Of a DNA stretch of 25,822 nucleotides, positions 1,176 through 25,822 are shown one piece after another. Source of the stretch: Polychytrium aggregatum (taxonomy: Eukaryota > Chytridiomycota > Chytridiomycetes > Polychytriales); NCBI RefSeq assembly GCF_025602895.1, contig NW_026516531.1:1-25822 (forward strand), read 5' to 3'. A model generated the notes under the pieces. That model did no database searches. It was not told the DNA's origin and saw only the letters and a program-made list of their open reading frames with translations. The position numbers were made by a program, and so were the translations under genes. Each line of letters starts with the position of its first letter. The stretch's first letter is position 1.

Positions 1176-1180
1176 CCCTC
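1176..1180. repeat. Target site duplication (left) of the gypsy element
   Basis: CCCTC lies immediately left of the LTR start at 1181. The same five bases follow the other LTR at 6648-6652. The uninterrupted LINE copies carry a single CCCTC at this place (for example about 12811-12815), which shows this is the 5-bp duplication made by integrase. Confidence 0.95.
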
Positions 1181-9101: not shown

Positions 9102-12100
9102 TCAGCTGCCCACAAGGTCTGAGACCAAGCGGGTGAACACATTTTCGAGCAGTTCCCACAAGGGAACAGCAGGATCGAGGGGGGGTCGGGGTGGAGGAAT
9201 GACAAGTGCTGACACTATACTACGCTGTGATGAGGGTGCAGGGAGAGACTGCAAGGGTGGGACTACACTGGGTGTGGGAGTGGGTGGTGGTGCTGGGTGT
9301 GCACCAAGTGCGAATGCTCGGAAGGCAGTGCGGGGAGCGGGTACATGAGCAGCAAGTGATCCAAGTGCGGGAGGGGTGCGACTGCGAGGGGGAGTGCGAT
9401 CGAAACTGAGCAGGTCCAGCAGCTTGTCCACTGGTCCCACTCCGGCTATACCACTTTCCACCCAAGTCGGGTGGGCCGTCTTGAGGGCTGCGACCTTGCG
9501 GACCAGGACTTGATGCGGATCCACACACTGCTGTGCGTGGGTCCTGGTCAAGTCGATCCCGGATCCGTGTCGAGCCAGGTTCTTGCACTTGCGGTAGCCA
9601 AATCTGAAGTGGCCTGGGAGAGCACCGAGTCGCCATCGGACCATGAACATGAGCATGATCATGGATCCTTGGTACCCGCGAGCCTCCCAGAGTCCCGACA
9701 TCTTGGTCGACGGGGTGCAGGCGGCGGTGAGCTGCTTGGAGCGGTCGAAGCCGTTCTTCATGTGGTCCTCGAAGATGAGGGTCTTGATCGGGACGGGCTG
9801 GGGTCGGGGCGGTCCGGGCGGCGGCGGCTGGTGTCGGGTCTTGCCTCGGTAGATCTCCGTGGCCGTGAGGGAGTGGTCGGCCTCTTGTCGGCGGACCACC
9901 ATGGCCCAGTGCGGATCGGCTCGGACTCCTTGGCCGAGGAACTGGTCGGGGTGGTAGGGCGCAATGATCTTGTTGCGCAGGATCATCGACAGCATCTTGT
10001 CGCCGTCAGAGACTTGGTCGTCCCAGCGGGCCCAGTTCTGCAGGGCCAGCATCTTGACACGGACCGACATCTTGGGAAGGCCGCAGTTGAGGTGCATGGC
10101 ACCGACGGGAGTGCCGGGGCCGACGCGGAACATGGTGCGGAGGGCCGTCATCTGGGCGTCGTCGAGGCGGTCGCGCAGAGCTGGGTCGGGGATGTCCATG
10201 GCCATCCCGTATTCGAGGGTCGGCCGCACAAAGGTCTTGTAGACCTGGGTGATGGTCTTGGCCGAGACCTTGCCGAGGGTGATGCCGAGTCCAACCACGG
10301 TGTCGGTGACCATGTGGACCTTGCGGAGGAGCTTGTCGAACTGGAGGTCCGGGCGGAATCCGTCAATGTCGACCATGACACCGAGGTAGCGGAACTGGAG
10401 GACCTTGGGCAGCTCGGTGCCGTACAGCTTGGCGGGATGGAGCTGGTCGACGTTGCAGGCCGAGTACAGCACCTCGCACTTGGGAGGCGAGAAGCGGTAC
10501 CGGTTGTCGATGCTGTGGCGTTCGCAGATATCCAGCATGGCCTGGGTGCGGCCAGCCGGACAGATGAGGACACCGTCATCGGCAAACCAGAGCGAGTTGA
10601 CCCGGAGACGGTGGTGGCGACTCGAGGCAAGCACAAGTCCGTCCTCGGCTCGGAGCAGTCCAGGCAGGTCGTCAATGTGGGCACTGAACAGAAGGGGACT
10701 CAGGACCGAGCCTTGGATGAGACCCTTCTGCAGCCACACAGGCTGCGACGTGCGGCCCTTGCTGGCGACGCGGACAAGAGTGCGGTCGAACATGGCCCTG
10801 AGGACCCCGACGGCGACCGGACCAGCACCTCGGGTGGCGATCTTGTCCCAGAGGCGCTCCCGCCAGACAGTGTCGTAGGCGGCCTTGATGTCGAGGAAGA
10901 CCAGGCTGTACTCGTCGTCGCGGATCTTGTTCATGCGGACAAGAGCGTCGAGCGAGTACACCTGGTCGAGGGTGCCTCGGTCCGGGCGGAAGCCTCCCTG
11001 GGCAATGTCCATGATGCCGATCTCGCGGGTGAGGAACGGCAGCAGGACTCGCTCGGCGATCTTGCGGAGGACCTGGGTCAACCCGATGGGCCGGTACATG
11101 GCCGGATCGAGGATCGAACCCTTGTTCTTGTAGACCGGGTGGATCAGGACAGTGTTCCACTCGGTCGGGACGACGGAGGCCTTGAGGGCGGCCAGCAGGA
11201 TGGCCCGGAGCCAGGGAGCGACCACGGGAGCGACAGGGTGCAGCATCTCGGCCTTGATCTTGTCCGGGCCGGAAGACTTGCGCTTGGGGGACTTGACGAT
11301 GGCATCGGCCACCTCGTCCGACGACAATCGGGGAATGGAGCGGTCCTCGGGGAGCAGGCGCGGAACAGTGTCCAGGGGTCTTGGGCCGACGGTCCGGTCA
11401 AAGGCGGCACCGGGGGTGTCCTGGGAGTGCGAGGAGACCTTGCCGTAGTGGACCACAAGTCGCTCGAGGGCCTCGTCCGAGTTGTCAAAGTGGAAGGCGT
11501 CGTCGAGCTCCTTGCGCTTCTTCATGGCGGCCAGGGACTTGGCGACCTCGGAAGCGTTGAGGGAGTGCAGCTTGTTCATGGCCAGGGTCTCGGCTGCTCG
11601 GCGGGACTGGACGATGAGGTTCTTTTCTTGTTTGCGGACAGCGCGGAGTTCGGCGCGCTTGTCCTCGGCGACGCGGAGGGAGAGCCCGGGCAACTTGAGC
11701 TGGTAGATGAGATCGCGGCGCCTCTCGCGAAGCTGCCGCATCTCGGGGATCAGGGCCGGGTCCTTCCAGACGGTCTTGATGGAAGCCTTGCCGATGGTGG
11801 AGTCGGCAGCGGTGGTGATCAGGGCGATCATGATGGACCAGGCGCGGTCGATGCAGTCCTGGGCCGCACTCTCCGAGATCGGAATGACCGATCCCCTTGA
11901 GATTGGCCGGAGTGCAGCCTGGATGCGCTGCAGACCGCGTTCGCGCTCGTCCAGCAGCGCCAAGAGGTACTGGGCGCGGACGGCAGGATCCTCGAGCTGG
12001 GCGATCTTCCACTGCCATTGGTCGACCTTTGGGTAGTACTTTGGCTGTACCCGCAGAGTCGCCCAGATGGGGAAGTGGTCGGACTGGCCACGGAAGGCAC

Positions 12101-12776
12101 CGGCAGTGTCGACCTGCAGCAGCGGGTCGTTGTTGGCCTGGCGATGCGACACAAAGATGTAGTCGATCGTTGTCCAGCTGGGACCCCGCTGCCGGGTGTG
12201 GGTCGGGATCACAGCTGGAGGCACAACGCGGAGACCGGCGCGGGAGACAGTGTCCTCGAGGATCTTCTCCCTGCCACGGAGCGGCGTGGGCAGTCCGCTC
12301 AGGGCACTGAGGTGGGCATTGAAGTCACCCACCACAATGACCTGGGCGTCGGGGAGGGCGGCCTTGGTGTGGATCGACTGGAGGGCCTCGCGGTAGTCGT
12401 CCAGCTTGAGGCTCGGGGACAGGTAGAAGTTGCCGATGTGGATGACGTGTTTGTATGTCACCCACATGGCGTCGCCCTTGTCGCTGACTTCAATGTTGGT
12501 GAAGTCGTGCGGGTCGATCCTGGCCGGGTTGTAGAGGATGGCGATGCCTCTACCGGCGCGGCAACGGGGACCAGGGACCTTGACGGCATAGCCACAGAGA
12601 GGGCTGCGGGGTTCGAGGTCGGCGAGGGTTTCTTGGACACCGACAAAGTCGATGTCGTTGGTGTCGATGAGGTTCTTGAGTTCAACGTCGTTGACGTTGA
12701 TGCCACAGACATTGAAGGAAGCGACGGTCAGGGATGTCTGGGCCCTGCCGCCTCCCTGCGAGGGGTGTGGATTCAT
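9102..12776 (-). CDS. LINE copy B ORF2: APE-type endonuclease and reverse transcriptase
   Basis: The frame is complete at 1224 residues, with ATG at 12776 overlapping the ORF1 stop as ATGA. The endonuclease domain (~15-240) shows N22, E49, Y118, GDFNAH 150-155, D205 and SDH 232-234, which are the catalytic and metal-binding positions of the APE family. The reverse transcriptase (~490-800) shows SSGPDKIKAEM (501-511), YRPIGL, GGFRPDRGT, D629 (FLDIKAAYD), the GLIQGSVLSPLLF motif and FADD 731-734. The C-terminal region has a degenerate Cys/His cluster (C1064, H1070, H1080, C1084) and a Pro-rich tail. I see no RNase H domain. The protein would nick a target or use an existing DNA 3' end and copy its own RNA. 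All key residues are present, so it is potentially active. Confidence 0.95.
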   Translation of the reverse strand: MNPHPSQGGGRAQTSLTVASFNVCGINVNDVELKNLIDTNDIDFVGVQETLADLEPRSPLCGYAVKVPGPRCRAGRGIAILYNPARIDPHDFTNIEVSDKGDAMWVTYKHVIHIGNFYLSPSLKLDDYREALQSIHTKAALPDAQVIVVGDFNAHLSALSGLPTPLRGREKILEDTVSRAGLRVVPPAVIPTHTRQRGPSWTTIDYIFVSHRQANNDPLLQVDTAGAFRGQSDHFPIWATLRVQPKYYPKVDQWQWKIAQLEDPAVRAQYLLALLDERERGLQRIQAALRPISRGSVIPISESAAQDCIDRAWSIMIALITTAADSTIGKASIKTVWKDPALIPEMRQLRERRRDLIYQLKLPGLSLRVAEDKRAELRAVRKQEKNLIVQSRRAAETLAMNKLHSLNASEVAKSLAAMKKRKELDDAFHFDNSDEALERLVVHYGKVSSHSQDTPGAAFDRTVGPRPLDTVPRLLPEDRSIPRLSSDEVADAIVKSPKRKSSGPDKIKAEMLHPVAPVVAPWLRAILLAALKASVVPTEWNTVLIHPVYKNKGSILDPAMYRPIGLTQVLRKIAERVLLPFLTREIGIMDIAQGGFRPDRGTLDQVYSLDALVRMNKIRDDEYSLVFLDIKAAYDTVWRERLWDKIATRGAGPVAVGVLRAMFDRTLVRVASKGRTSQPVWLQKGLIQGSVLSPLLFSAHIDDLPGLLRAEDGLVLASSRHHRLRVNSLWFADDGVLICPAGRTQAMLDICERHSIDNRYRFSPPKCEVLYSACNVDQLHPAKLYGTELPKVLQFRYLGVMVDIDGFRPDLQFDKLLRKVHMVTDTVVGLGITLGKVSAKTITQVYKTFVRPTLEYGMAMDIPDPALRDRLDDAQMTALRTMFRVGPGTPVGAMHLNCGLPKMSVRVKMLALQNWARWDDQVSDGDKMLSMILRNKIIAPYHPDQFLGQGVRADPHWAMVVRRQEADHSLTATEIYRGKTRHQPPPPGPPRPQPVPIKTLIFEDHMKNGFDRSKQLTAACTPSTKMSGLWEARGYQGSMIMLMFMVRWRLGALPGHFRFGYRKCKNLARHGSGIDLTRTHAQQCVDPHQVLVRKVAALKTAHPTWVESGIAGVGPVDKLLDLLSFDRTPPRSRTPPALGSLAAHVPAPRTAFRAFALGAHPAPPPTPTPSVVPPLQSLPAPSSQRSIVSALVIPPPRPPLDPAVPLWELLENVFTRLVSDLVGS

Positions 12777-14458
12777 TGGAGTCGTGCAGCGCTGCTGCTG
12801 GCCCGGGGGCCCTCTCCTTCAGAGTCAGTGTCCATGACGGACAGCGGGACTCTGTAGGCGGGGTGAGGCTTGCTGGGCTTTGACGAGGCACCAGCGGCGG
12901 GGGCAGCAGCAGCAGCGACAGCAACGACAACGGCAGGGGCAGCGGTAGCGGCAGCGGCAGAGGCAGACGACGAGGCAGCGGCAGCGGCAGAACCAGGGAC
13001 CTTGGGGACGGCGGTGATGTCCGCCCGCTTGACCTCCTTGCCGGATAGGGCCTTCTTGAGGAGCGAGTCGTACTCGTCGCGGTACTCCTCGGGGATGCGC
13101 ATCTGGATGCAGCGGCGGACAGGGGCGGTCTTGGCCTTGGCTGCCTGGCGGAGGGACTTTGCCATAAAGTTCTTGATGGCATCGGATCGGGACAGGGCCA
13201 GTCCATGGTGCTTGAGACCATGGATGACGTCGTAGGCCGGTACGACCCTGACCCTGCCATGTGTGGACGACAGCGACTCCAGACGGGCACCAAGGTCGGC
13301 CTTGTTGGATTTGTCGCGGACAAGGACCTCCATGACCGTGGCCTCAGGGAAGTTGATCTCGGCCAACTCCCTGGTGTCGATGCCGCATCGCTTGAGGTTG
13401 CGGCGGACACTGCCGAGGTCGCCACAGCGGATGCCCTCGACGTACAGCCAGTCCATGTTGGTGACGGCCTCCCTGAACTTGTCGTTCCGGAGCTCAGAGT
13501 TGGCGACCGTCCCGGGGACAAGGACTGGCTGGCGGTGCTGGTTGGGCTGGATCGGCTTGGAGGAGCCTGGCATTCGGCCGGTGGTCAGCATCCTCTTCCA
13601 TTCGTCGAGCTGGCTGGCCTCGGACATGCGGCCGACACGGCTCTCGGCCTCCCGAACGTTCTTCAAGAGAGCGGCCTTGTACGAGGGAGACGGGGCGGAA
13701 ACAGGGGCAGAGCCAGGGAGGGAGCCGGAGGACTGGGTCTTGGAACCGGGGGACTGGGTCTTGGGGGTGGCAGTCTTGTTGGCAACAGACTTGCGGAGCT
13801 GCTCCGTGGCACGGCTGATTGCCACATTGGACTTGGCGATCTTCTGGACCATGGCCTTGGTGGCAGCATCCATGTTGTCGGCCACGAGTGCCTCGAACAG
13901 GATGGACTGCACCCGGTCAGCCTCTCGCTTGAGGATAGCGAGGGCCTCCTCGGGTTTCATCGCAGGGACGGGAGCCTGGGACGGAGGAGGGGTCTTGGCC
14001 TTGACGACGGGTCGGGGCGGAAGGACGGGCCTGGCCTTGGGGACAGGGGACGCAGTGCCAACAGCATCAACAGCTCGACGAGCTGGATCGACGGGGTCAG
14101 CAGTGGAAGCAGGGGCTGCTCGAGGGGCGCCTTCAGAGGCACCACGGGGGACGGCGCGCTGCTTGTCCATGGTCTTGAGGCCGCACTTGGTGTGGAAGTT
14201 CTCCTTGAACTTGTCCGAGAACGCATCCACAAACAGCTTGCGGGACTCCTTGGTGGTGCGGCTCATGTGGGCCCAGAACTGGAAGGCCGACATCTGGCCG
14301 GGGCAGGGTCCGTCCTCGAGGGCCTGGGGACACTTGAGCTGGAGCTCGTCCTTGCCGTGCTTGACGACGATCCAGGGATCGGCCGAGGCGAGCTTGCACT
14401 TGCGGCACAGGACAGTGCACTGCAGCTTGGCGGTCACGGCCATCCACAGCTGGTTGTT
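12773..14458 (-). pseudogene. LINE copy B ORF1, 5'-truncated
   Basis: It retains residues ~201-761 of ORF1 in frame and ends with TGA at 12775-12773 inside the ATGA overlap. The start codon and the first ~200 residues are missing because the copy is 5'-truncated. An in-frame ATG at 14443 (residue 206) could start a 556-residue product that keeps the cysteine cluster, but nothing suggests it is expressed. Confidence 0.88.
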
Positions 14459-14585
14459 TTTTTTTTTTTTGTTACTATAGTCAACTTTATTTAAGAAGAC
14501 AAGCCATCAGGTCCAACAGGTTGGTACCCCGGCACGTTGAGTACACAGGCAAGCCTATTTACTCCTGTTGCAGCCTAGTGCTGCC
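14459..14585 (-). promoter_or_regulatory. LINE copy C 3'UTR, poly(A) signal and tail
   Basis: The poly(A) signal AATAAA lies at 14491-14486 (minus), with the same 15-base spacer to the A-tail as in the other copies. One nearby difference (TTAAATAAAG rather than TGAATAAAG) keeps the signal intact. Confidence 0.88.
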
Positions 14586-17500
14586 TCAGCTGCCCACAAG
14601 GTCTGAGACCAAGCGGGTGAACACATTTTCAAGCAGTTCCCACAAGGGAATAGCAGGATCGACGGGAGGTCGGGGTGGTGGAGTGACAAGTGCTGGCACT
14701 ATACTACGCTGTGATGAGGGTGCAGGGAGAGACTGCAAGGGTGGGACTACACTGGTTGTGGGAGTGGGTGCTGGTACTGGGTGTGCACCAAGTGCGAATG
14801 CTCGGAAGGCAGTGCGGGGAGCGGGTACATGAGCAGCAAGCGATCCAAGTGCGGGAGGGGTGCGAGTGCGAGGGGGAGTGCGATCGAAAGAGAGCAGGTC
14901 CAGCAGCTTGTCCACTGGTCCCACTCCGGCTATACCACTTTCCACCCAAGTCGGGTGGGCCGTCTTGAGGGCTGCGACCTTGCGGACCAGGACTTGATGC
15001 GGATCCACACATTGCTGTGCGTGGGTCCTGGTCAAGTCGATCCCGGATCCGTGTCGAGCCAGGTTCTTGCACTTGCGGTATCCGAACCTGAAGTGGCCTG
15101 GGAGAGCACCGAGTCGCCATCGGACCATGAACATGAGCATGACCATGGATCCTTGGTACCCGCGAGCCTCCCAGAGTCCCGACATCTTGGTCGACGGGGT
15201 GCAGGCGGCGGTGAGCTGCTTGGAGCGGTCGAAGCCGTTCTTCATGTGGTCCTCGAAGATGAGGGTCTTGATCGGGCCGGGCTGGGGTCGGGGCGGTCCG
15301 GGCGGCGGCGGCTGGTGTCGGGTCTTGCCTCGGTAGATCTCCGTGGCCGTGAGGGAGTGGTCGGCCTCTTGTCGGCGGACCACCATGGCCCAGTGCGGAT
15401 CGGCTCGGACTCCTTGGCCGAGGAACTGGTCGGGGTGGTAGGGCGCAATGATCTTGTTGCGCAGGATCATCGACAGCATCTTGTCGCCGTCAGAGACTTG
15501 GTCGTCCCAGCGGGCCCAGTTCTGCAGGGCCAGCATCTTGACACGGACGGACATCTTGGGGAGGCCGCAGTTGAGGTGCATGGCACCGACGGGAGTGCCG
15601 GGGCCGACGCGGAACATGGTGCGGAGGGCCGTCATCTGGGCGTCGTCGAGGCGGTCGCGCAGAGCCGGGTCCGGGATGTCCATGGCCATCCCGTATTCGA
15701 GGGTCGGCCGCACAAAGGTCTTGTAGACCTGGGTGATGGTCTTGGCCGAGACCTTGCCGAGGGTGATGCCAAGTCCAACCACGGTGTCGGTGACCATGTG
15801 GACCTTGCGGAGGAGCTTGTCGAACTGGAGGTCCGGGCGGAATCCGTCAATGTCGACCATGACACCGAGGTAGCGGAACTGGAGGACCTTGGGCAGCTCG
15901 GTGCCGTACAGCTTGGCGGGATGGAGCTGGTCGACGTTGCAGGCCGAGTACAGCACCTCGCACTTGGGAGGCGAGAAGCGGTAGCGATTGTCGACACTGT
16001 GACGCTCACAGATGTCCAGCATGGCCTGGGTGCGGCCAGCCGGACAGATGAGGACACCATCGTCGGCAAACCAGAGCGAGTTGACCCGGAGACGGTGGTG
16101 GCGACTGGAGGCAAGCACAAGTCCGTCCTCGGCTCGGAGCAGTCCAGGCAGGTCGTCAATGTGGGCACTGAACAGAAGGGGACTCAGGACCGAGCCTTGG
16201 ATGAGACCCTTCTGCAGCCACACAGGCTGTGACGTGCGGCCCTTGCTGGCGACGCGGACAAGAGTGCGGTCGAACATGGCCCTGAGGACCCCGACGGCGA
16301 CCGGACCAGCACCTCGGGCGGCGATCTTGTCCCAGAGGCGCTCCCGCCAGACAGTGTCGTAGGCGGCCTTGATGTCGAGGAAGACCAGGCTGTACTCGTC
16401 GTCGCAGATCTTGTTCATGCGGACAAGAGCGTCGAGCGAGTACACCTGGTCGAGGGTGCCTCGGTCCGGGCGGAAGCCTCCCTGGGCAATGTCCATGATG
16501 CCGATCTCGCGGGTGAGGAACGGCAGCAGGACTCGCTCGGCGATCTTGCGGAGGACCTGGGTCAACCCGATGGGCCGGTACATGGCCGGATCGAGGATCG
16601 AACCCTTGTTCTTGTAGACCGGGTGGATCAGGACAGTGTTCCACTCGGTCGGGACGACGGAGGCCTTGAGGGCGGCCAGCAGGATGGCCCGGAGCCAGGG
16701 AGCGACCACGGGAGCGACAGGGTGCAGCATCTCGGCCTTGATCTTGTCCGGGCCGGAGGACTTGCGCTTGGGGGACTTGACGATGGCATCGGCCACCTCG
16801 TCCGACGACAAGCGGGGAATGGATCGATCCTCGGGGAGCAGGCGCGGAACAGTGTCCAGGGGTCTTGGGCCGACGGTCCGGTCAAAGGCGGCACCGGGGG
16901 TGTCCTGGGAGTGCGAGGAGACCTTGCCGTAGTGGACCACAAGTCGCTCGAGGGCCTCGTCCGAGTTGTCAAAGTGGAAGGCGTCGTCGAGCTCCTTGCG
17001 CTTCTTCATGGCGGCCAGGGACTTGGCGACCTCGGAAGCGTTGAGTGAGTGCAGCTTGTTCATGGCCAGGGTCTCGGCTGCTCGGCGGGACTGGACGATG
17101 AGGTTCTTTTCTTGTTTGCGGACAGCGCGGAGTTCGGCGCGCTTGTCCTCGGCGACGCGGAGGGAGAGCCCGGGCAACTTGAGCTGGTAGATGAGATCGC
17201 GGCGCCTCTCGCGAAGCTGCCGCATCTCGGGGATCAGGGCCGGGTCCTTCCAGACGGTCTTGATGGAAGCCTTGCCGATGGTGGAGTCGGCAGCGGTGGT
17301 GATCAGGGCGATCATGATGGACCAGGCGCGGTCGATGCAGTCCTGGGCCGCACTCTCCGAGATCGGAATGACCGATCCCCTTGAGATTGGCCGGAGTGCA
17401 GCCTGTATGCGCTGCAGACCGCGTTCGCGCTCGTCCAGCAGCGCCAAGAGGTACTGGGCGCGGACGGCGGGATCCTCGAGCTGGGCGATCTTCCACTGCC

Positions 17501-18260
17501 ATTGGTCGACCTTTGGGTAGTACTTTGGCTGTACCCGCAGAGTCGCCCAGATGGGGAAGTGGTCGGACTGGCCACGGAAGGCACCGGCAGTGTCGACCTG
17601 CAGCAGCGGGTCGTTGTTGGCCTGGCGATGCGACACAAAGATGTAGTCGATCGTTGTCCAGCTGGGACCCCGCTGCCGGGTGTGGGTCGGGATCACAGCT
17701 GGAGGCACAACGCGGAGACCGGCGCGGGAGACAGTGTCCTCGAGGATCTTCTCCCTGCCACGGAGCGGCGTGGGCAGTCCGCTCAGGGCACTGAGGTGGG
17801 CATTGAAGTCACCCACCACAATGACCTGGGCGTCGGGGAGGGCGGCCTTGGTGTGGATCGACTGGAGGGCCTCGCGGTAGTCGTCCAGCTTGAGGCTCGG
17901 GGACAGGTAGAAGTTGCCGATGTGGATGACGTGTTTGTATGTCACCCACATGGCGTCGCCCTTGTCGCTGACTTCAATGTTGGTGAAGTCGTGCGGGTCG
18001 ATCCTGGCCGGGTTGTAGAGGATGGCGATGCCTCTACCGGCGCGGCAACGGGGACCAGGGACCTTGACGGCATAGCCACAGAGAGGGCTGCGGGGTTCGA
18101 GGTCGGCGAGGGTTTCTTGGACACCGACAAAGTCGATGTCGTTGGTGTCGATGAGGTTCTTGAGTTCAACGTCGTTGACGTTGATGCCACAGACATTGAA
18201 GGAAGCGACGGTCAGGGATGTCTGGGCCCTGCCGCCTCCCTGCGAGGGGTGTGGATTCAT
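14586..18260 (-). CDS. LINE copy C ORF2: APE-type endonuclease and reverse transcriptase
   Basis: The frame is complete at 1224 residues with all endonuclease (E49, D151, N153, D205, D233, H234) and RT (D629, D733, D734) residues. Compared with copies B and D it carries R619C, T648A, I756V, V995G, I1040V, S1132T, A1162V, P1164A, P1169T, S1189P, I1193T, L1200V and V1204I. Eight of these fall in the last 93 residues, a Pro-rich tail likely under weak constraint. R619C lies 10 residues before the catalytic Asp629 and is not itself catalytic. It keeps the ATGA overlap with ORF1, and the reading frame is preserved, so function may be retained. Confidence 0.95.
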   Translation of the reverse strand: MNPHPSQGGGRAQTSLTVASFNVCGINVNDVELKNLIDTNDIDFVGVQETLADLEPRSPLCGYAVKVPGPRCRAGRGIAILYNPARIDPHDFTNIEVSDKGDAMWVTYKHVIHIGNFYLSPSLKLDDYREALQSIHTKAALPDAQVIVVGDFNAHLSALSGLPTPLRGREKILEDTVSRAGLRVVPPAVIPTHTRQRGPSWTTIDYIFVSHRQANNDPLLQVDTAGAFRGQSDHFPIWATLRVQPKYYPKVDQWQWKIAQLEDPAVRAQYLLALLDERERGLQRIQAALRPISRGSVIPISESAAQDCIDRAWSIMIALITTAADSTIGKASIKTVWKDPALIPEMRQLRERRRDLIYQLKLPGLSLRVAEDKRAELRAVRKQEKNLIVQSRRAAETLAMNKLHSLNASEVAKSLAAMKKRKELDDAFHFDNSDEALERLVVHYGKVSSHSQDTPGAAFDRTVGPRPLDTVPRLLPEDRSIPRLSSDEVADAIVKSPKRKSSGPDKIKAEMLHPVAPVVAPWLRAILLAALKASVVPTEWNTVLIHPVYKNKGSILDPAMYRPIGLTQVLRKIAERVLLPFLTREIGIMDIAQGGFRPDRGTLDQVYSLDALVRMNKICDDEYSLVFLDIKAAYDTVWRERLWDKIAARGAGPVAVGVLRAMFDRTLVRVASKGRTSQPVWLQKGLIQGSVLSPLLFSAHIDDLPGLLRAEDGLVLASSRHHRLRVNSLWFADDGVLICPAGRTQAMLDICERHSVDNRYRFSPPKCEVLYSACNVDQLHPAKLYGTELPKVLQFRYLGVMVDIDGFRPDLQFDKLLRKVHMVTDTVVGLGITLGKVSAKTITQVYKTFVRPTLEYGMAMDIPDPALRDRLDDAQMTALRTMFRVGPGTPVGAMHLNCGLPKMSVRVKMLALQNWARWDDQVSDGDKMLSMILRNKIIAPYHPDQFLGQGVRADPHWAMVVRRQEADHSLTATEIYRGKTRHQPPPPGPPRPQPGPIKTLIFEDHMKNGFDRSKQLTAACTPSTKMSGLWEARGYQGSMVMLMFMVRWRLGALPGHFRFGYRKCKNLARHGSGIDLTRTHAQQCVDPHQVLVRKVAALKTAHPTWVESGIAGVGPVDKLLDLLSFDRTPPRTRTPPALGSLAAHVPAPRTAFRAFALGAHPVPAPTPTTSVVPPLQSLPAPSSQRSIVPALVTPPPRPPVDPAIPLWELLENVFTRLVSDLVGS

Positions 18261-19051
18261 TGGAGTCGTGCAGCGCTGCTGCTGGCCCGGGGGCCCTCTC
18301 CTTCAGAGTCAGTGTCCATGACGGACAGCGGGACTCTGTAGGCGGGGTGAGGCTTGCTGGGCTTTGACGAGGCACCAGCGGCGGGGGCAGCAGCAGCAGC
18401 GACAGCAACGACAACGGCAGGGGCAGCGGTAGCGGCAGCGGCAGAGGCAGACGACGAGGCAGCGGCAGCGGCAGAACCAGGGACCTTGGGGACGGCGGTG
18501 ATGTCCGCCCGCTTGACCTCCTTGCCGGATAGGGCCTTCTTGAGGAGCGAGTCGTACTCGTCGCGGTACTCCTCGGGGATGCGCATCTGGATGCAGCGGC
18601 GGACAGGGGCGGTCTTGGCCTTGGCTGCCTGGCGGAGGGACTTTGCCATAAAGTTCTTGATGGCATCGGATCGGGACAGGGCCAGTCCATGGTGCTTGAG
18701 ACCATGGATGACGTCGTAGGCCGGTACGACCCTGACCCTGCCATGTGTGGACGACAGCGACTCCAGACGGGCACCAAGGTCGGCCTTGTTGGATTTGTCG
18801 CGGACAAGGACCTCCATGACCGTGGCCTCAGGGAAGTTGATCTCGGCCAACTCCCTGGTGTCGATGCCGCATCGCTTGAGGTTGCGGCGGACACTGCCGA
18901 GGTCGCCACAGCGGATGCCCTCGACGTACAGCCAGTCCATGTTGGTGACGGCCTCCCTGAACTTGTCGTTCCGGAGCTCAGAGTTGGCGACCGTCCCGGG
19001 GACAAGGACTGGCTGGCGGTGCTGGTTGGGCTGGATCGGCTTGGAGGAGCC
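18257..19051 (-). pseudogene. LINE copy C ORF1, C-terminal fragment
   Basis: It keeps residues ~498-761 of ORF1: the folded-looking region ~520-610, the Ala-rich tract and the C-terminus ending in ATGA. The frame remains open to the right through the adjacent copy's A-tail (Lys codons) and a few 3'UTR codons, with only a TTG near the start. It has no proper initiation codon of its own. Confidence 0.87.
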
Positions 19052-19179
19052 TTTTTTTTTTTTTGTTACTATAGTCAACTTTATTCAAGAAGACAAGCCA
19101 TCAGGTCCAACAGGTTGGTACCCCGGCACGTTGAGTACACAGGCAAGCCTATTTACTCCTGTTGCAGCCTAGTGCTGCC
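19052..19179 (-). promoter_or_regulatory. LINE copy D 3'UTR, poly(A) signal and tail
   Basis: AATAAA lies at 19085-19080 (minus), followed by 15 bases and A13. The small 3'UTR hairpin is at 19104-19122. Confidence 0.88.
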
Positions 19180-22100
19180 TCAGCTGCCCACAAGGTCTGA
19201 GACCAAGCGGGTGAACACATTTTCGAGCAGTTCCCACAAGGGAACAGCAGGATCGAGGGGGGGTCGGGGTGGAGGAATGACAAGTGCTGACACTATACTA
19301 CGCTGTGATGAGGGTGCAGGGAGAGACTGCAAGGGTGGGACTACACTGGGTGTGGGAGTGGGTGGTGGTGCTGGGTGTGCACCAAGTGCGAATGCTCGGA
19401 AGGCAGTGCGGGGAGCGGGTACATGAGCAGCAAGTGATCCAAGTGCGGGAGGGGTGCGACTGCGAGGGGGAGTGCGATCGAAACTGAGCAGGTCCAGCAG
19501 CTTGTCCACTGGTCCCACTCCGGCTATACCACTTTCCACCCAAGTCGGGTGGGCCGTCTTGAGGGCTGCGACCTTGCGGACCAGGACTTGATGCGGATCC
19601 ACACACTGCTGTGCGTGGGTCCTGGTCAAGTCGATCCCGGATCCGTGTCGAGCCAGGTTCTTGCACTTGCGGTAGCCAAATCTGAAGTGGCCTGGGAGAG
19701 CACCGAGTCGCCATCGGACCATGAACATGAGCATGATCATGGATCCTTGGTACCCGCGAGCCTCCCAGAGTCCCGACATCTTGGTCGACGGGGTGCAGGC
19801 GGCGGTGAGCTGCTTGGAGCGGTCGAAGCCGTTCTTCATGTGGTCCTCGAAGATGAGGGTCTTGATCGGGACGGGCTGGGGTCGGGGCGGTCCGGGCGGC
19901 GGCGGCTGGTGTCGGGTCTTGCCTCGGTAGATCTCCGTGGCCGTGAGGGAGTGGTCGGCCTCTTGTCGGCGGACCACCATGGCCCAGTGCGGATCGGCTC
20001 GGACTCCTTGGCCGAGGAACTGGTCGGGGTGGTAGGGCGCAATGATCTTGTTGCGCAGGATCATCGACAGCATCTTGTCGCCGTCAGAGACTTGGTCGTC
20101 CCAGCGGGCCCAGTTCTGCAGGGCCAGCATCTTGACACGGACCGACATCTTGGGAAGGCCGCAGTTGAGGTGCATGGCACCGACGGGAGTGCCGGGGCCG
20201 ACGCGGAACATGGTGCGGAGGGCCGTCATCTGGGCGTCGTCGAGGCGGTCGCGCAGAGCTGGGTCGGGGATGTCCATGGCCATCCCGTATTCGAGGGTCG
20301 GCCGCACAAAGGTCTTGTAGACCTGGGTGATGGTCTTGGCCGAGACCTTGCCGAGGGTGATGCCGAGTCCAACCACGGTGTCGGTGACCATGTGGACCTT
20401 GCGGAGGAGCTTGTCGAACTGGAGGTCCGGGCGGAATCCGTCAATGTCGACCATGACACCGAGGTAGCGGAACTGGAGGACCTTGGGCAGCTCGGTGCCG
20501 TACAGCTTGGCGGGATGGAGCTGGTCGACGTTGCAGGCCGAGTACAGCACCTCGCACTTGGGAGGCGAGAAGCGGTACCGGTTGTCGATGCTGTGGCGTT
20601 CGCAGATATCCAGCATGGCCTGGGTGCGGCCAGCCGGACAGATGAGGACACCGTCATCGGCAAACCAGAGCGAGTTGACCCGGAGACGGTGGTGGCGACT
20701 CGAGGCAAGCACAAGTCCGTCCTCGGCTCGGAGCAGTCCAGGCAGGTCGTCAATGTGGGCACTGAACAGAAGGGGACTCAGGACCGAGCCTTGGATGAGA
20801 CCCTTCTGCAGCCACACAGGCTGCGACGTGCGGCCCTTGCTGGCGACGCGGACAAGAGTGCGGTCGAACATGGCCCTGAGGACCCCGACGGCGACCGGAC
20901 CAGCACCTCGGGTGGCGATCTTGTCCCAGAGGCGCTCCCGCCAGACAGTGTCGTAGGCGGCCTTGATGTCGAGGAAGACCAGGCTGTACTCGTCGTCGCG
21001 GATCTTGTTCATGCGGACAAGAGCGTCGAGCGAGTACACCTGGTCGAGGGTGCCTCGGTCCGGGCGGAAGCCTCCCTGGGCAATGTCCATGATGCCGATC
21101 TCGCGGGTGAGGAACGGCAGCAGGACTCGCTCGGCGATCTTGCGGAGGACCTGGGTCAACCCGATGGGCCGGTACATGGCCGGATCGAGGATCGAACCCT
21201 TGTTCTTGTAGACCGGGTGGATCAGGACAGTGTTCCACTCGGTCGGGACGACGGAGGCCTTGAGGGCGGCCAGCAGGATGGCCCGGAGCCAGGGAGCGAC
21301 CACGGGAGCGACAGGGTGCAGCATCTCGGCCTTGATCTTGTCCGGGCCGGAAGACTTGCGCTTGGGGGACTTGACGATGGCATCGGCCACCTCGTCCGAC
21401 GACAATCGGGGAATGGAGCGGTCCTCGGGGAGCAGGCGCGGAACAGTGTCCAGGGGTCTTGGGCCGACGGTCCGGTCAAAGGCGGCACCGGGGGTGTCCT
21501 GGGAGTGCGAGGAGACCTTGCCGTAGTGGACCACAAGTCGCTCGAGGGCCTCGTCCGAGTTGTCAAAGTGGAAGGCGTCGTCGAGCTCCTTGCGCTTCTT
21601 CATGGCGGCCAGGGACTTGGCGACCTCGGAAGCGTTGAGGGAGTGCAGCTTGTTCATGGCCAGGGTCTCGGCTGCTCGGCGGGACTGGACGATGAGGTTC
21701 TTTTCTTGTTTGCGGACAGCGCGGAGTTCGGCGCGCTTGTCCTCGGCGACGCGGAGGGAGAGCCCGGGCAACTTGAGCTGGTAGATGAGATCGCGGCGCC
21801 TCTCGCGAAGCTGCCGCATCTCGGGGATCAGGGCCGGGTCCTTCCAGACGGTCTTGATGGAAGCCTTGCCGATGGTGGAGTCGGCAGCGGTGGTGATCAG
21901 GGCGATCATGATGGACCAGGCGCGGTCGATGCAGTCCTGGGCCGCACTCTCCGAGATCGGAATGACCGATCCCCTTGAGATTGGCCGGAGTGCAGCCTGG
22001 ATGCGCTGCAGACCGCGTTCGCGCTCGTCCAGCAGCGCCAAGAGGTACTGGGCGCGGACGGCAGGATCCTCGAGCTGGGCGATCTTCCACTGCCATTGGT

Positions 22101-22854
22101 CGACCTTTGGGTAGTACTTTGGCTGTACCCGCAGAGTCGCCCAGATGGGGAAGTGGTCGGACTGGCCACGGAAGGCACCGGCAGTGTCGACCTGCAGCAG
22201 CGGGTCGTTGTTGGCCTGGCGATGCGACACAAAGATGTAGTCGATCGTTGTCCAGCTGGGACCCCGCTGCCGGGTGTGGGTCGGGATCACAGCTGGAGGC
22301 ACAACGCGGAGACCGGCGCGGGAGACAGTGTCCTCGAGGATCTTCTCCCTGCCACGGAGCGGCGTGGGCAGTCCGCTCAGGGCACTGAGGTGGGCATTGA
22401 AGTCACCCACCACAATGACCTGGGCGTCGGGGAGGGCGGCCTTGGTGTGGATCGACTGGAGGGCCTCGCGGTAGTCGTCCAGCTTGAGGCTCGGGGACAG
22501 GTAGAAGTTGCCGATGTGGATGACGTGTTTGTATGTCACCCACATGGCGTCGCCCTTGTCGCTGACTTCAATGTTGGTGAAGTCGTGCGGGTCGATCCTG
22601 GCCGGGTTGTAGAGGATGGCGATGCCTCTACCGGCGCGGCAACGGGGACCAGGGACCTTGACGGCATAGCCACAGAGAGGGCTGCGGGGTTCGAGGTCGG
22701 CGAGGGTTTCTTGGACACCGACAAAGTCGATGTCGTTGGTGTCGATGAGGTTCTTGAGTTCAACGTCGTTGACGTTGATGCCACAGACATTGAAGGAAGC
22801 GACGGTCAGGGATGTCTGGGCCCTGCCGCCTCCCTGCGAGGGGTGTGGATTCAT
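19180..22854 (-). CDS. LINE copy D ORF2: APE-type endonuclease and reverse transcriptase
   Basis: This 1224-residue protein is identical to that of copy B. N-terminal APE-type endonuclease: N22, E49, Y118, D151, N153, D205, D233-H234. Central reverse transcriptase: D629, FADD 731-734, with the LINE-type GLIQGSVLSPLLF motif at 685-697. The thumb/connection region lacks any recognisable RNase H. The C-terminal Cys/His cluster (C1064, H1070, H1080, C1084) only loosely resembles the CCHC finger usual at LINE ORF2 ends. It starts at ATG 22854, sharing ATGA with the ORF1 stop. As the partner of the only intact ORF1, this is the best candidate for an active copy. Confidence 0.96.
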   Translation of the reverse strand: MNPHPSQGGGRAQTSLTVASFNVCGINVNDVELKNLIDTNDIDFVGVQETLADLEPRSPLCGYAVKVPGPRCRAGRGIAILYNPARIDPHDFTNIEVSDKGDAMWVTYKHVIHIGNFYLSPSLKLDDYREALQSIHTKAALPDAQVIVVGDFNAHLSALSGLPTPLRGREKILEDTVSRAGLRVVPPAVIPTHTRQRGPSWTTIDYIFVSHRQANNDPLLQVDTAGAFRGQSDHFPIWATLRVQPKYYPKVDQWQWKIAQLEDPAVRAQYLLALLDERERGLQRIQAALRPISRGSVIPISESAAQDCIDRAWSIMIALITTAADSTIGKASIKTVWKDPALIPEMRQLRERRRDLIYQLKLPGLSLRVAEDKRAELRAVRKQEKNLIVQSRRAAETLAMNKLHSLNASEVAKSLAAMKKRKELDDAFHFDNSDEALERLVVHYGKVSSHSQDTPGAAFDRTVGPRPLDTVPRLLPEDRSIPRLSSDEVADAIVKSPKRKSSGPDKIKAEMLHPVAPVVAPWLRAILLAALKASVVPTEWNTVLIHPVYKNKGSILDPAMYRPIGLTQVLRKIAERVLLPFLTREIGIMDIAQGGFRPDRGTLDQVYSLDALVRMNKIRDDEYSLVFLDIKAAYDTVWRERLWDKIATRGAGPVAVGVLRAMFDRTLVRVASKGRTSQPVWLQKGLIQGSVLSPLLFSAHIDDLPGLLRAEDGLVLASSRHHRLRVNSLWFADDGVLICPAGRTQAMLDICERHSIDNRYRFSPPKCEVLYSACNVDQLHPAKLYGTELPKVLQFRYLGVMVDIDGFRPDLQFDKLLRKVHMVTDTVVGLGITLGKVSAKTITQVYKTFVRPTLEYGMAMDIPDPALRDRLDDAQMTALRTMFRVGPGTPVGAMHLNCGLPKMSVRVKMLALQNWARWDDQVSDGDKMLSMILRNKIIAPYHPDQFLGQGVRADPHWAMVVRRQEADHSLTATEIYRGKTRHQPPPPGPPRPQPVPIKTLIFEDHMKNGFDRSKQLTAACTPSTKMSGLWEARGYQGSMIMLMFMVRWRLGALPGHFRFGYRKCKNLARHGSGIDLTRTHAQQCVDPHQVLVRKVAALKTAHPTWVESGIAGVGPVDKLLDLLSFDRTPPRSRTPPALGSLAAHVPAPRTAFRAFALGAHPAPPPTPTPSVVPPLQSLPAPSSQRSIVSALVIPPPRPPLDPAVPLWELLENVFTRLVSDLVGS
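22851..22854 (-). promoter_or_regulatory. ORF1/ORF2 stop-start overlap (ATGA)
   Basis: The ORF1 stop TGA and the ORF2 start ATG share four bases, ATGA. The same arrangement is kept in copies A (1139-1142), B (12773-12776) and C (18257-18260). Such overlaps are known in non-LTR elements, for example UAAUG in silkworm SART1, to allow ORF2 translation by termination-reinitiation. That mechanism is inferred here. Confidence 0.85.
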
Positions 22855-25136
22855 TGGAGTCGTGCAGCGCTGCTGCTGGCCCGGGGGCCCTCTCCTTCAG
22901 AGTCAGTGTCCATGACGGACAGCGGGACTCTGTAGGCGGGGTGAGGCTTGCTGGGCTTTGACGAGGCACCAGCGGCGGGGGCAGCAGCAGCAGCGACAGC
23001 AACGACAACGGCAGGGGCAGCGGTAGCGGCAGCGGCAGAGGCAGACGACGAGGCAGCGGCAGCGGCAGAACCAGGGACCTTGGGGACGGCGGTGATGTCC
23101 GCCCGCTTGACCTCCTTGCCGGATAGGGCCTTCTTGAGGAGCGAGTCGTACTCGTCGCGGTACTCCTCGGGGATGCGCATCTGGATGCAGCGGCGGACAG
23201 GGGCGGTCTTGGCCTTGGCTGCCTGGCGGAGGGACTTTGCCATAAAGTTCTTGATGGCATCGGATCGGGACAGGGCCAGTCCATGGTGCTTGAGACCATG
23301 GATGACGTCGTAGGCCGGTACGACCCTGACCCTGCCATGTGTGGACGACAGCGACTCCAGACGGGCACCAAGGTCGGCCTTGTTGGATTTGTCGCGGACA
23401 AGGACCTCCATGACCGTGGCCTCAGGGAAGTTGATCTCGGCCAACTCCCTGGTGTCGATGCCGCATCGCTTGAGGTTGCGGCGGACACTGCCGAGGTCGC
23501 CACAGCGGATGCCCTCGACGTACAGCCAGTCCATGTTGGTGACGGCCTCCCTGAACTTGTCGTTCCGGAGCTCAGAGTTGGCGACCGTCCCGGGGACAAG
23601 GACTGGCTGGCGGTGCTGGTTGGGCTGGATCGGCTTGGAGGAGCCTGGCATTCGGCCGGTGGTCAGCATCCTCTTCCATTCGTCGAGCTGGCTGGCCTCG
23701 GACATGCGGCCGACACGGCTCTCGGCCTCCCGAACGTTCTTCAAGAGAGCGGCCTTGTACGAGGGAGACGGGGCGGAAACAGGGGCAGAGCCAGGGAGGG
23801 AGCCGGAGGACTGGGTCTTGGAACCGGGGGACTGGGTCTTGGGGGTGGCAGTCTTGTTGGCAACAGACTTGCGGAGCTGCTCCGTGGCACGGCTGATTGC
23901 CACATTGGACTTGGCGATCTTCTGGACCATGGCCTTGGTGGCAGCATCCATGTTGTCGGCCACGAGTGCCTCGAACAGGATGGACTGCACCCGGTCAGCC
24001 TCTCGCTTGAGGATAGCGAGGGCCTCCTCGGGTTTCATCGCAGGGACGGGAGCCTGGGACGGAGGAGGGGTCTTGGCCTTGACGACGGGTCGGGGCGGAA
24101 GGACGGGCCTGGCCTTGGGGACAGGGGACGCAGTGCCAACAGCATCAACAGCTCGACGAGCTGGATCGACGGGGTCAGCAGTGGAAGCAGGGGCTGCTCG
24201 AGGGGCGCCTTCAGAGGCACCACGGGGGACGGCGCGCTGCTTGTCCATGGTCTTGAGGCCGCACTTGGTGTGGAAGTTCTCCTTGAACTTGTCCGAGAAC
24301 GCATCCACAAACAGCTTGCGGGACTCCTTGGTGGTGCGGCTCATGTGGGCCCAGAACTGGAAGGCCGACATCTGGCCGGGGCAGGGTCCGTCCTCGAGGG
24401 CCTGGGGACACTTGAGCTGGAGCTCGTCCTTGCCGTGCTTGACGACGATCCAGGGATCGGCCGAGGCGAGCTTGCACTTGCGGCACAGGACAGTGCACTG
24501 CAGCTTGGCGGTCACGGCCATCCACAGCTGGTTGTTCATCTTGGTGACGTCGATGATCTGGGTTGCAGCCTTCTGATCATCGACGTCGGACGAGGCGTGC
24601 CACTTGCGCCAGAACTCGTCGCGCCAAGGAACCGAGACGACGTCGGCACTGGGCTGGACAACAATGTCCATGGCACAGTGGTCTTGGTGGGGAGCGGCGG
24701 AGGAGGACACGGGAGCCAGGGACTCGGCAGGGTGGTCTTGGTCGGCACAGGAGGACGAGGGCTCAGCGTCAGGCTCTTGGTCCGGGCTGAGGTCTTCTTC
24801 GACATTGATGTCCTCCAGTTCATCAATGTCGACGGCGGCACGGGCGGCAGCGCGGTCCAAGGGCGGGAACGAAAAGTCGGGTTCGGCCGGGAACCTGAAC
24901 TCGGGCGGGGCCGGGAGCCTGGACTCGGGCACGGACACGGACGGGAACTCGGACTCGGGGAGACGCTCGTCATGCTCCGGCCTGGGGAGCATGGTCATTG
25001 CGTCGGGCAAGGACAGGCGACGCTTGGCGGGGGAGGAAGGGGTGGCCACGGGTCGCTCCTTGCGCTTGAAGATCAAGCTGCCGACAGCGATGGTCGAGGC
25101 CGGGAGAAGGGACTGCTGGGGTCTGTCCTTGGACAT
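22851..25136 (-). CDS. LINE copy D ORF1 protein (intact, 761 aa)
   Basis: This is the complete ORF1 with ATG at 25136. Residues 1-200 are Pro/Ser-rich and acidic, likely disordered, with a basic KRKE/KRR patch near 24-40. A cysteine cluster (C214, C218, C221, C243, C252, spacing X3, X2, X21, X8) may bind zinc. Residues ~300-365 form a Pro/Ala/basic linker and ~365-425 look helical. Segment ~520-610 (DWLYVEGIRCGDLGSVRR onward) looks folded and resembles, from memory, a segment in ORF proteins of LINEs from early-diverging fungi. An Ala-rich tract ~690-725 precedes a short acidic DTDSEGEG. LINE ORF1 proteins usually bind the element RNA and form the RNP; this is inferred by position. No CCHC knuckle or certain RRM is seen. 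Confidence 0.9.
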   Translation of the reverse strand: MSKDRPQQSLLPASTIAVGSLIFKRKERPVATPSSPAKRRLSLPDAMTMLPRPEHDERLPESEFPSVSVPESRLPAPPEFRFPAEPDFSFPPLDRAAARAAVDIDELEDINVEEDLSPDQEPDAEPSSSCADQDHPAESLAPVSSSAAPHQDHCAMDIVVQPSADVVSVPWRDEFWRKWHASSDVDDQKAATQIIDVTKMNNQLWMAVTAKLQCTVLCRKCKLASADPWIVVKHGKDELQLKCPQALEDGPCPGQMSAFQFWAHMSRTTKESRKLFVDAFSDKFKENFHTKCGLKTMDKQRAVPRGASEGAPRAAPASTADPVDPARRAVDAVGTASPVPKARPVLPPRPVVKAKTPPPSQAPVPAMKPEEALAILKREADRVQSILFEALVADNMDAATKAMVQKIAKSNVAISRATEQLRKSVANKTATPKTQSPGSKTQSSGSLPGSAPVSAPSPSYKAALLKNVREAESRVGRMSEASQLDEWKRMLTTGRMPGSSKPIQPNQHRQPVLVPGTVANSELRNDKFREAVTNMDWLYVEGIRCGDLGSVRRNLKRCGIDTRELAEINFPEATVMEVLVRDKSNKADLGARLESLSSTHGRVRVVPAYDVIHGLKHHGLALSRSDAIKNFMAKSLRQAAKAKTAPVRRCIQMRIPEEYRDEYDSLLKKALSGKEVKRADITAVPKVPGSAAAAASSSASAAAATAAPAVVVAVAAAAAPAAGASSKPSKPHPAYRVPLSVMDTDSEGEGPRASSSAARLQ
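22975..23070 (-). repeat. GCN triplet-rich tract in ORF1 (poly-alanine coding)
   Basis: An imperfect GCA/GCG/GCC run codes for the Ala-rich segment (~690-725) of ORF1. The same tract occurs in copies A (~6735-6830), B (~12897-12992) and C (~18381-18476) with no visible length change, so it is not an expanding microsatellite on this timescale. Confidence 0.75.
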
Positions 25137-25240
25137 CGCTCAGCAGTGGGGAAGGGGACAGGGAGTGTGGGAGCGAGGGCGGGGAACTGGAGGGGCAGAG
25201 CTGGAACAAACACAGAGGTGAAAGCAGTGTGGTGCAGGCC
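25137..25240 (-). other. LINE copy D 5'UTR
   Basis: The first 82 bases upstream of the ORF1 start appear identical to copy A (8897-8978). The next 22 bases, up to the first 20-bp repeat, are seen only here. No TATA box is visible. LINEs often carry internal promoters in this region. Confidence 0.7.
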
Positions 25241-25380
25241 ACACGGTGCAGCAAGAGCAATACAGGTGCAGCAGGAGCAGGACAGGTGCAGCAAGAGCAG
25301 GACAGGTGCAGCAAGAGCAGGACAGGTGCAGCAAGAGCAGGACAGGTGCAGCAGGAGCAGGATAGGTGCGGCAGGAGCAG
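25241..25380. repeat. Seven tandem copies of a 20-bp repeat
   Basis: Back-to-back units start at 25241, 25261, 25281, 25301, 25321, 25341 and 25361. The consensus is GACAGGTGCAGCAAGAGCAG on the + strand. The three central units are identical; the first and last differ at several bases. The array lies between the LINE 5'UTR and the TTAGG repeats. It may be a 5'UTR monomer array with promoter function, or subtelomeric satellite added after the LINE. Only one copy is present in the window, so the two cannot be separated. Confidence 0.95.
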
Positions 25381-25394
25381 AGAACTCGATGTGT

Positions 25395-25424
25395 CAGGGT
25401 TAGGTTAGGTTAGGTTAGGTTAGG
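25395..25424 (+). repeat. Telomere-type (TTAGG)5 tract
   Basis: Five exact TTAGG units occupy 25400-25424, preceded by CAGGG (25395-25399), which may be a degenerate unit. The G-rich strand runs left to right, so the chromosome tip should be to the right. T13 and a LINE 3' end follow immediately. Confidence 0.9.
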
Positions 25425-25626
25425 TTTTTTTTTTTTTGTTACTATAGTCAACTTTATTCAAGAAGACAAGCCATCAGGTCCAACAGGTTGGTACCCCCGG
25501 CACGTTGAGTACACAGGCAAGCCTATTTACTCCTGTTGCAGCCTAGTGCTGCCTCAGCTGCCACAAGGTCTGAGACCAAGCGGGTGAACACATTTTCGAG
25601 CAGTTCCCACAAGGGAACAGCAGGAT
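25425..25626 (-). mobile_element. LINE copy E, 3'-end fragment joined to TTAGG
   Basis: T13 (25425-25437) directly follows TTAGG. Then come the full 3'UTR with AATAAA (25458-25453) and ~70 bases of the ORF2 end, broken at CAGGAT where the T-run of copy F begins. Two single-base indels occur in C-runs relative to copy D (C5 for C4 near 25498; C2 for C3 near 25561). Confidence 0.9.
25554..25626 (-). pseudogene. LINE copy E ORF2 C-terminal remnant
   Basis: It holds the stop codon (25556-25554) and the last ~24 codons of ORF2, with one base missing in a C-run near the end. It is far too short to be functional. Confidence 0.8.
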
Positions 25627-25822
25627 TTTTTTTTTTTTTTTTGTTACTATAGTCAACTTTATTCAAGAAGACAAGCCATCAGGTCCAACAGGTTGGTACC
25701 CCGGCACGTTGAGTACACAGGCAAGCCTATTTACTCCTGTTGCAGCCTAGTGCTGCCTCAGCTGCCCACAAGGTCTGAGACCAAGCGGGTGAACCACATT
25801 TTCGAGCAGTTCCCACAAGGGA
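25627..25822 (-). mobile_element. LINE copy F, 3' end, runs off window
   Basis: It begins in a T17 run (25626-25642), then has the 3'UTR with AATAAA (25663-25658) and the ORF2 end. It continues to the window edge, so its full length is unknown. A single extra C near 25796 (AACCACA for AACACA) breaks the frame relative to copies B to D. Confidence 0.9.
25758..25822 (-). pseudogene. LINE copy F ORF2 C-terminus, partial
   Basis: It shows the stop codon at 25760-25758 and the last ~21 codons of ORF2, cut by the window edge, with a single-base insertion near 25796. Whether the copy is otherwise intact is unknown. Confidence 0.75.

Follow-up and report, generated by a model that had tools for sequence, protein, structure and literature searches.

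In the chytrid fungus Polychytrium aggregatum, a short tract of TTAGG telomere repeats runs directly into the 3′ end of a LINE, which raises the question of whether the LINE was attached to an exposed chromosome end or inserted into telomere repeats. The stretch of DNA analyzed here (the window, 25,822 nucleotides) is the entire contig C256 of an assembly of 64.68 Mb in 418 contigs, and all of our results are drawn from this one genome assembly. An earlier note on this DNA had described (TTAGG)5, T13, and the complement of the LINE 3′UTR in immediate succession, and this junction is present as claimed (...GTGTCAGGG-(TTAGG)5-T13-GTTACTATAGTCAACTTTATTC..., with the units at 25400–25424 and the T-run at 25425–25437). 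One point needs correcting: the copy nearest to the tract extends for only 201 bp with its T-run counted in, and what comes after it is the 3′ end of a further LINE copy, not TTAGG. The G-rich strand of the tract points right, toward the presumed chromosome end; the window's right end is a contig end that lies within a LINE, and we inferred the direction of the chromosome end from other contigs.

Six copies of one LINE lie in the window, every one on the minus strand and head-to-tail (Table 1), with a T-run and 3′UTR complement additionally at 8979, 14457, 19052, and 25626. The poly(A) complements of copies B to F are runs of T8 to T17 that abut the full or truncated 5′ end of the left-hand copy, the exception being copies D and E, which have TTAGG between them. 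Copies A to C have differing end points in the 5′UTR or ORF1; the 5′ end of copy A (8978) corresponds to U6167, where U coordinates are those of copy D read on the plus strand. Copy A is also interrupted by a Ty3/gypsy element, and its left edge is cut by a second, inverted LTR piece (window 1–229). The LTRs of the nested element (1181–1480 and 6339–6638) were 100% identical over the 300-base stretches compared, by which measure it appears young, and its ORF (1499–5575) contains RVT_1, RNase H, and Chromo domains above the Pfam cut-off and an integrase core below it.

Table 1. Positions of the LINE copies and other features in the window.
Feature	Positions	Strand	Description
LINE copy A	230..8978	-	5′UTR, ORF1, part of ORF2; repeat families and inverted pairs
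Ty3/gypsy chromodomain LTR retrotransposon	1181..6638	-	nested in copy A
LINE copy B	8979..14456	-	5′-truncated in ORF1; T8 at 8979-8986 is the poly(A) complement
ORF2 of copy B	9102-12818		open
LINE copy C	14457..19051	-	5′-truncated in ORF1; T14 from 14457
ORF2 of copy C	14586-18302		open
LINE copy D	19052..25399	-	fullest in the window; 5′UTR repeats, ORF1, ORF2, 3′UTR, T13 at 19052-19064
ORF2 of copy D	19180..22896	-	1238 codons between stops; encodes an APE-type endonuclease followed by a reverse transcriptase
ORF1 of copy D	22851..25139	-	762 codons between stops
20-bp tandem repeats	25245..25380		6.8 copies in the 5′UTR of copy D (TRF)
(TTAGG)5 telomere tract	25400..25424	+	separates copy D (5′ end) from copy E (3′ end)
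LINE copy E	25425..25625	-	3′ fragment of 201 bp including T13 (25425-25437), joined to TTAGG
LINE copy F	25626..25822	-	T17 and 3′ end of one more copy, which runs off the contig

Pfam identified the endonuclease (PF03372, E 1.7e-13; PF14529, E 4e-11) and the reverse transcriptase (PF00078, E 2.4e-24) in ORF2 of copy D, the endonuclease domain being matched across its full Pfam length, and the best solved-structure match of the reverse transcriptase was LINE-1 ORF2p; ORF1 of the same copy had no Pfam match at E 0.1. An ORF1, an ORF2 with endonuclease and reverse transcriptase, poly(A), and 5′ truncation together place the element among APE-class non-LTR retrotransposons. A database search with ORF2 returned only 15 matches, the best with 27% identity and none with a name indicating a telomeric element. 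The ORF2 sequences of copies B and D are identical, and that of copy C differs from both at 46 of 3717 nucleotides (31 synonymous). Other copies of the LINE have a 5′ end ∼790 bp longer than that of copy D, and in this subfamily the extra sequence is itself cut at several joints (L031:365–1152, L037:984–1491). Telomeric elements have been reported to show a G-quadruplex bias (PMC10088271). In copy D the strand that carries TTAGG contains 2 such motifs and the sense strand 0, no excess over the 2.5 and 0.08 obtained from shuffles, and we rejected this feature for it.

Genome-wide, the LINE 3′ end had 203 matches (94 plus, 109 minus) and its reversed control 0; 185 of these, on 62 contigs, were characterized, the rest being unlisted or flanked too shortly. 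Thirty contigs with a length of at least 100 kb carry the LINE, in 87 copies. The 5′ end faces the nearer contig end in 84 of the 87, and 85 are no more than 65 kb from an end, a zone that makes up 20.6% of those contigs; counted per contig end, 30 of 32 are entirely outward. Two interior copies aside, the suggestion that such joints would be found at contig ends and in one orientation is borne out by these counts, in which we equated a contig end with a chromosome end only where TTAGG or shared orientation supports it. Four of the 87 joints are exceptional, namely the interior copies C112:710310 (+) and C375:462365 (−); C335:1844 (+), which faces inward near the contig start and is cut after 834 bp by a putative LTR; and C28:132376 (−), which is inverted 1.9 kb from the contig end. 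The first three may be relics of former chromosome ends or the product of infrequent ordinary insertion. On C28 (121036–132376) and the smaller C262 (3138–25469), copies face each other within one contig, as in an end-to-end fusion, a fold-back, or a mis-join. An assembly artefact was rejected as the source of the joints, as like joints recur across contigs with differing T-run lengths and neighbors. The gypsy family taken for contrast is a weak control, consisting of strand counts and listed positions only; its LTR-end pattern had 693 matches (343 plus, 350 minus), and there were interior places among the 100 of 693 listed.

The TTAGG-T(n)-3′UTR pattern itself had 48 matches genome-wide and 0 in the reversed control, so the junction is not due to chance. 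These matches represent 39 places, 38 with at least two TTAGG units and one (C112:710310) with a single GGTTAGG. A pattern with no LINE sequence in the query, TTAGGTTAGG-T8, gave 38 matches (reversed control, 1), and all 38 sites are the same 38 LINE joints. They fall into 10 distinct classes, and the perfect TTAGG tracts internal to arrays are short, with 3–5 units in eight of the ten classes and 10–11 in the other two; one might guess that the LINE prefers worn tracts, and short tracts could equally be remnants. All 39 places change from repeat to T-run after GG, reading GG-T(n), a phase that would fit the pairing of a ...GGT or ...GGTT end with poly(A) and, equally, a TT^AGG cut.

The second of these possibilities deserves attention because the TRAS1 endonuclease of Bombyx mori nicks TT^AGG (PMC7265360), matching the phase seen here, so that the 38 TTAGG joints by themselves would fit endonuclease insertion into TTAGG. 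The LINE could then be a parasite of the TRAS/SART kind, whose APE endonuclease cuts TTAGG between T and A and which enters the tract, with recombination, erosion, and nesting producing the head-to-tail arrays. The endonuclease domain is indeed APE-type, SART and TRAS are endonuclease-plus-reverse transcriptase elements that use TTAGG (PMC4700185, PMC7265360), and on contigs C39 and C40 TTAGG flanks short LINE pieces on both sides. TRAS-like cutting may therefore contribute at TTAGG joints, but as an account of the arrays we consider it unlikely, because it fits the TTAGG joints alone and a TTAGG tract is present at only 38 of the 185 joints.

What the LINE 3′ ends sit on is more varied. Upstream of the 185 are a TTAGG tract in 38, the body of the same LINE in 74, a related LINE in 6, and other sequence in 66, with one upstream too short to assign; judged by their last 20 upstream bases, the 185 joints collapse to 119. 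The joints on the LINE body occupy 53 distinct points. We dropped four of these, which left 49: two that have a T but lie <60 bp from the 3′ end, and two that lack a T and have 1 and 17 bases unmatched. In 45 of the 49 the intact target continues with T (one T in 36, two in nine), where 33% would be expected for random breaks; p is about 1e-17 if the distinct joints are taken as independent, and because the joints are partly copies of one another, the counts exceed the number of independent events and the p-values overstate significance. T is absent from four of the 49, as it is from two more joints outside them. The base that follows the T or Ts is G or C in 47 of the 47 joints having T and never A, so a TT^A nick like that of TRAS1 is not required. 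Since A follows T in just 6% of cases within the LINE, this count excludes a required TT^A cut and does not prove a bias. Joints on the LINE body require only a T, which also argues against insertion of the TRAS/SART kind.

The ∼790 bp of added 5′ sequence described above accounts for eight of the 66 other upstreams. A T comes next in five of the eight, which represent two distinct joints; two more carry 5 unmatched bases and lack a T, and the eighth lies where the reference sequence stops, so the T count covers the other seven. Several further upstreams are reading frames of related LINEs or gypsy elements, that on C28 is sequence adjoining a host gene, and many stay in no named class. The reading frame of the host gene on C28 (L042) matches BJ171DRAFT_539672 of Polychytrium aggregatum with 99% identity in the best local alignment, which spans 37% of a query that included an apparent intron. 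A LINE copy at C300:19661 has a broken gypsy body beneath it, likewise with the joint at a T.

If the LINE had been inserted into older sequence, that sequence should resume beyond each copy, and the spacing of consecutive joints bears directly on this point. Of the 83 consecutive pairs open to this test, 72 are spaced by the length of a single LINE 3′ part, 60 of them exactly and the others to within 23 bases; 35 pairs whose distal joint is not on this LINE were left out of the 83. Because these 72 pairs hold only one LINE copy, the older target does not resume, as the earlier note had anticipated, and we rejected ordinary insertion with target duplication, for which they leave no space. The same absence of resumed targets counts against a parasite entering TTAGG. 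The remaining 11 pairs are longer by 1.4–13.5 kb, and among the matches listed gypsy LTRs lie inside at least four of these intervals (C20, C38, and C39 twice). TTAGG resuming beyond full-length copies had been named as a sign of ordinary insertion into the repeat tract, and half of this pattern was found. Full-length copies do have TTAGG beyond their 5′ end, and eight of them tile exactly or nearly, but the 3′ sides of these eight are LINE body in six, other DNA in one, and TTAGG in only one. Ordinary insertion into a tract of TTAGG therefore does not account for most of them, which again do not match the TRAS/SART-like explanation. Outward orientation, terminal position, T at the joint, and a target that does not resume can all be read from the sequence. 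LINE-TTAGG units also occur in tandem, alternating between 2.81 and 2.95 kb (5.76 kb repeats) at C207:4260–26233 and repeating every 5178 bp at C374:34575–50109 and C182:30862–36040, as if copied by recombination or rolling replication.

We looked for the other partner, telomerase, in the same assembly. Three stretches on C408 matched the telomerase (TERT) RNA-binding domain above the Pfam cut-off. Among the 100 of 140 matches listed, perfect TTAGGx15 tracts lie within 400 bases of the contig end with the G-rich strand outward on six of six contigs (C39, C40, C112, C204, C239, and C323), and all six bear LINE 3′ ends within 13.1 kb of that end. The telomere repeat appears to be TTAGG, with a few TCAGG and TTAGGG variants at contig ends; for the assembly of another chytrid, Batrachochytrium, TTAGGG is reported (PMC11797018), and no paper joining Polychytrium aggregatum with telomere was found in the literature searched. 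Two loci have TTAGGx4 away from LINE arrays (L013, C20:91023; L014, C24:99375), with no LINE match within the 3-kb loci.

In all four terminal joins that we read, TTAGG is joined to a truncated LINE body, starting after a 36-base LINE piece on C39, after about 240 bases on C40, at U1217 on C204, and at U2208 on C323; the terminal tracts of C39 and C40 are about 340–360 bases long. On C323, the LINE beneath the terminal TTAGG has its own 3′ end on a LINE body, so that LINE was not inserted into TTAGG, a further point against the TRAS/SART-like explanation. That TTAGG stands on truncated LINEs, that LINEs stand on short TTAGG tracts, and that there is a TERT gene are likewise findings at the level of the DNA letters. 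The proposed alternation of TTAGG and LINE thus held and extends to TTAGG added onto truncated LINEs, whereas no support emerged for a LINE that caps chromosome ends, where the terminal cap seen is TTAGG, or that is needed to maintain them.

We conclude that serial terminal attachment of the LINE, alternating with telomerase, is probably the correct reading of these sequences and the best of those considered. The poly(A) RNA of the LINE would be reverse-transcribed from an exposed chromosome 3′ end wherever that end finishes in T. Such ends would include TTAGG repeats that stop at ...GGT(T), worn remnants of earlier LINE copies, broken gypsy elements, and further kinds of subtelomeric DNA. Priming of this kind would leave the 5′ end of the new copy outward, and erosion of the end or an early stop of synthesis would then truncate the 5′ end. 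Another LINE would attach next, or telomerase would put TTAGG on the broken LINE, and the cycle would repeat. On this reading the T-ended free 3′ end would itself be the primer, endonuclease cutting would be dispensable for attachment, the TTAGG tracts would be made by telomerase, and attachment, erosion, and TTAGG addition would have followed one another in the order given. Serial attachment with telomerase accommodates joints on TTAGG, LINE, and gypsy sequence alike. Against attachment to ends stands the whole-length endonuclease domain of ORF2, which a purely end-primed element does not need.

We were concerned that arrays of this form could also arise in a single step, with one reverse transcription event at an end passing from LINE RNA to the next poly(A) and so producing a concatemer. 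Template jumping of this kind is known for R2-type elements; it would give truncated copies in this head-to-tail order, with brief microhomology where they join, and some adjacent pieces are very short (33–78 bp). It may contribute inside arrays, but we regard it as very unlikely to explain them, given that the RNA of this LINE is not the source of the TTAGG, gypsy elements, related LINEs, or other DNA on which joints are found, that TTAGG tracts lie between copies, and that neighboring copies in the window are different sequence variants.

Recombination or break-induced replication could alternatively have built the arrays from a by now largely passive LINE that made only one or a few attachments. 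Identical joints do recur (U2641 six times, U3277 four times), the C207 pair and the C374 and C182 units are repeated, and MoTeR arrays expand likewise (PMC7367193, PMC8381367). This explanation nevertheless seems extremely improbable to us, because the LINE must have attached many separate times to yield 53 distinct joint points on its body and 10 TTAGG classes, mostly at T; the open ORFs and the identical ORF2 of copies B and D would also fit recent activity, though homogenization could produce them too. Serial attachment remains our preferred reading, with some joints likely spread later among chromosome ends by recombination.

How, then, does the chytrid LINE compare with known telomeric elements? 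The HeT-A, TART, and TAHRE elements of Drosophila are also non-LTR elements arranged head-to-tail at chromosome ends, with poly(A) centromere-ward and the 5′ end outward, and their addition to the 3′-OH of the end is assumed (PMC4700185, PMC10088271). The chytrid LINE shares this orientation in the outward copies and tiling pairs counted above. As described in PMC4700185, Drosophila is without telomerase and canonical telomere repeats, whereas Polychytrium aggregatum has the TERT domain on C408, TTAGG at contig ends, and TTAGG intermixed with LINE, so the LINE has not replaced telomerase. The likeness to HeT-A and TART that the earlier note drew therefore stands for geometry and not for membership; the LINE resembles them in geometry and likely way of working, a comparison made apart from reverse transcriptase clade.

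The TRAS and SART elements of Bombyx mori likewise have two ORFs, with endonuclease and reverse transcriptase, and lie in (TTAGG)n telomeres; SART has a poly(A) tail and an AP-like endonuclease, in an animal whose telomerase is described as barely detectable (PMC4700185, PMC7265360). The chytrid LINE has the two ORFs, the APE-type endonuclease and reverse transcriptase, and the poly(A). TRAS and SART insert into the tract and, as reported in PMC4700185, only as full-length copies; most joints of the chytrid LINE are off TTAGG, and many copies are truncated, with 53 distinct 5′ end points, which is also hard to reconcile with the TRAS/SART-like explanation.

The fungal telomeric LINEs MoTeR (Magnaporthe/Pyricularia oryzae) and FoTeR (Fusarium oxysporum) also have telomere tracts at their joints, and the chytrid LINE resembles them in its mosaic of relics and short telomere tracts. 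Short telomere tracts lie between copies in MoTeR arrays (PMC7367193, PMC8381367), and 5′ truncations healed by telomere repeats as well as interior relics are described for both elements (PMC7367193, PMC8381367, PMC12857005). They encode a restriction-like endonuclease, C-terminal in FoTeR, and are grouped with SLACS, CRE1/2, and Cnl1 (PMC12857005). The endonuclease of the chytrid LINE is N-terminal and APE-type, with Pfam finding only N-terminal PF03372/PF14529 and RVT_1 in ORF2, and its 3′ ends often sit on LINE bodies without TTAGG rather than on telomere repeats. GilM and GilT (Giardia) and Zepp (Chlorella), compared here by description and not by joints, are telomeric LINEs beside telomerase repeats, and GilM and GilT are oriented with reverse transcription toward the end (PMC10088271). 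Endonuclease-independent LINE-1 insertion at dysfunctional telomeres is alike in that reverse transcription occurs at an exposed telomere end (PMC4700185), but it is a laboratory event in DNA-PKcs-deficient cells, as that source presents it, while the chytrid case is a standing feature of a natural genome. The chytrid LINE therefore departs from HeT-A/TART, TRAS/SART, and MoTeR/FoTeR in one defining feature each, namely the presence of a TERT gene, a majority of joints off TTAGG, and an endonuclease that is not restriction-like. Its combination is one of apparently HeT-A-like geometry in an APE-type LINE coexisting with telomerase.

These joints provide a genome-scale, base-by-base record of the same chromosome ends receiving LINEs and telomere repeats in alternation, two end-building systems recorded in succession in the same DNA, in an early-branching fungus that carries a telomerase gene. 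How telomerase gives way to retrotransposon telomeres, as in flies, is an open question, and the intermediate becomes directly testable in a genome where both states coexist and dozens of joints are resolved; the joint rule, a T-ended 3′ end with no cutting motif, is a simple biochemical prediction. We tentatively propose, while leaning toward doubt, that two telomere-extending reverse transcriptases work side by side. Telomerase would re-cap worn LINEs, and LINEs of at least two families (A and B) would extend any T-ended end without sequence choice or cut, as a standing backup once TTAGG wears to about 3–5 repeats. Such a system, if true, would be a natural intermediate between telomerase and Drosophila-type telomeres.

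The second, related LINE family has the 3′ end T14-GTTTACAATAG (GTTTACAATAGTTGTATATT; loci L005 and L053) and 30 copies, 22 exact and eight with one or two mismatches. On C38 it is attached to the truncated 3′ part of its own kind, and on C20 to a related, truncated ORF1. All 12 of the exact copies placed on contigs of at least 100 kb are outward and within 33 kb of the end, a bias shared with the first family that adds to the case for serial attachment; six other exact copies are on contigs of unknown size and four on small ones. One relative with two mismatches lies in the interior of C212.
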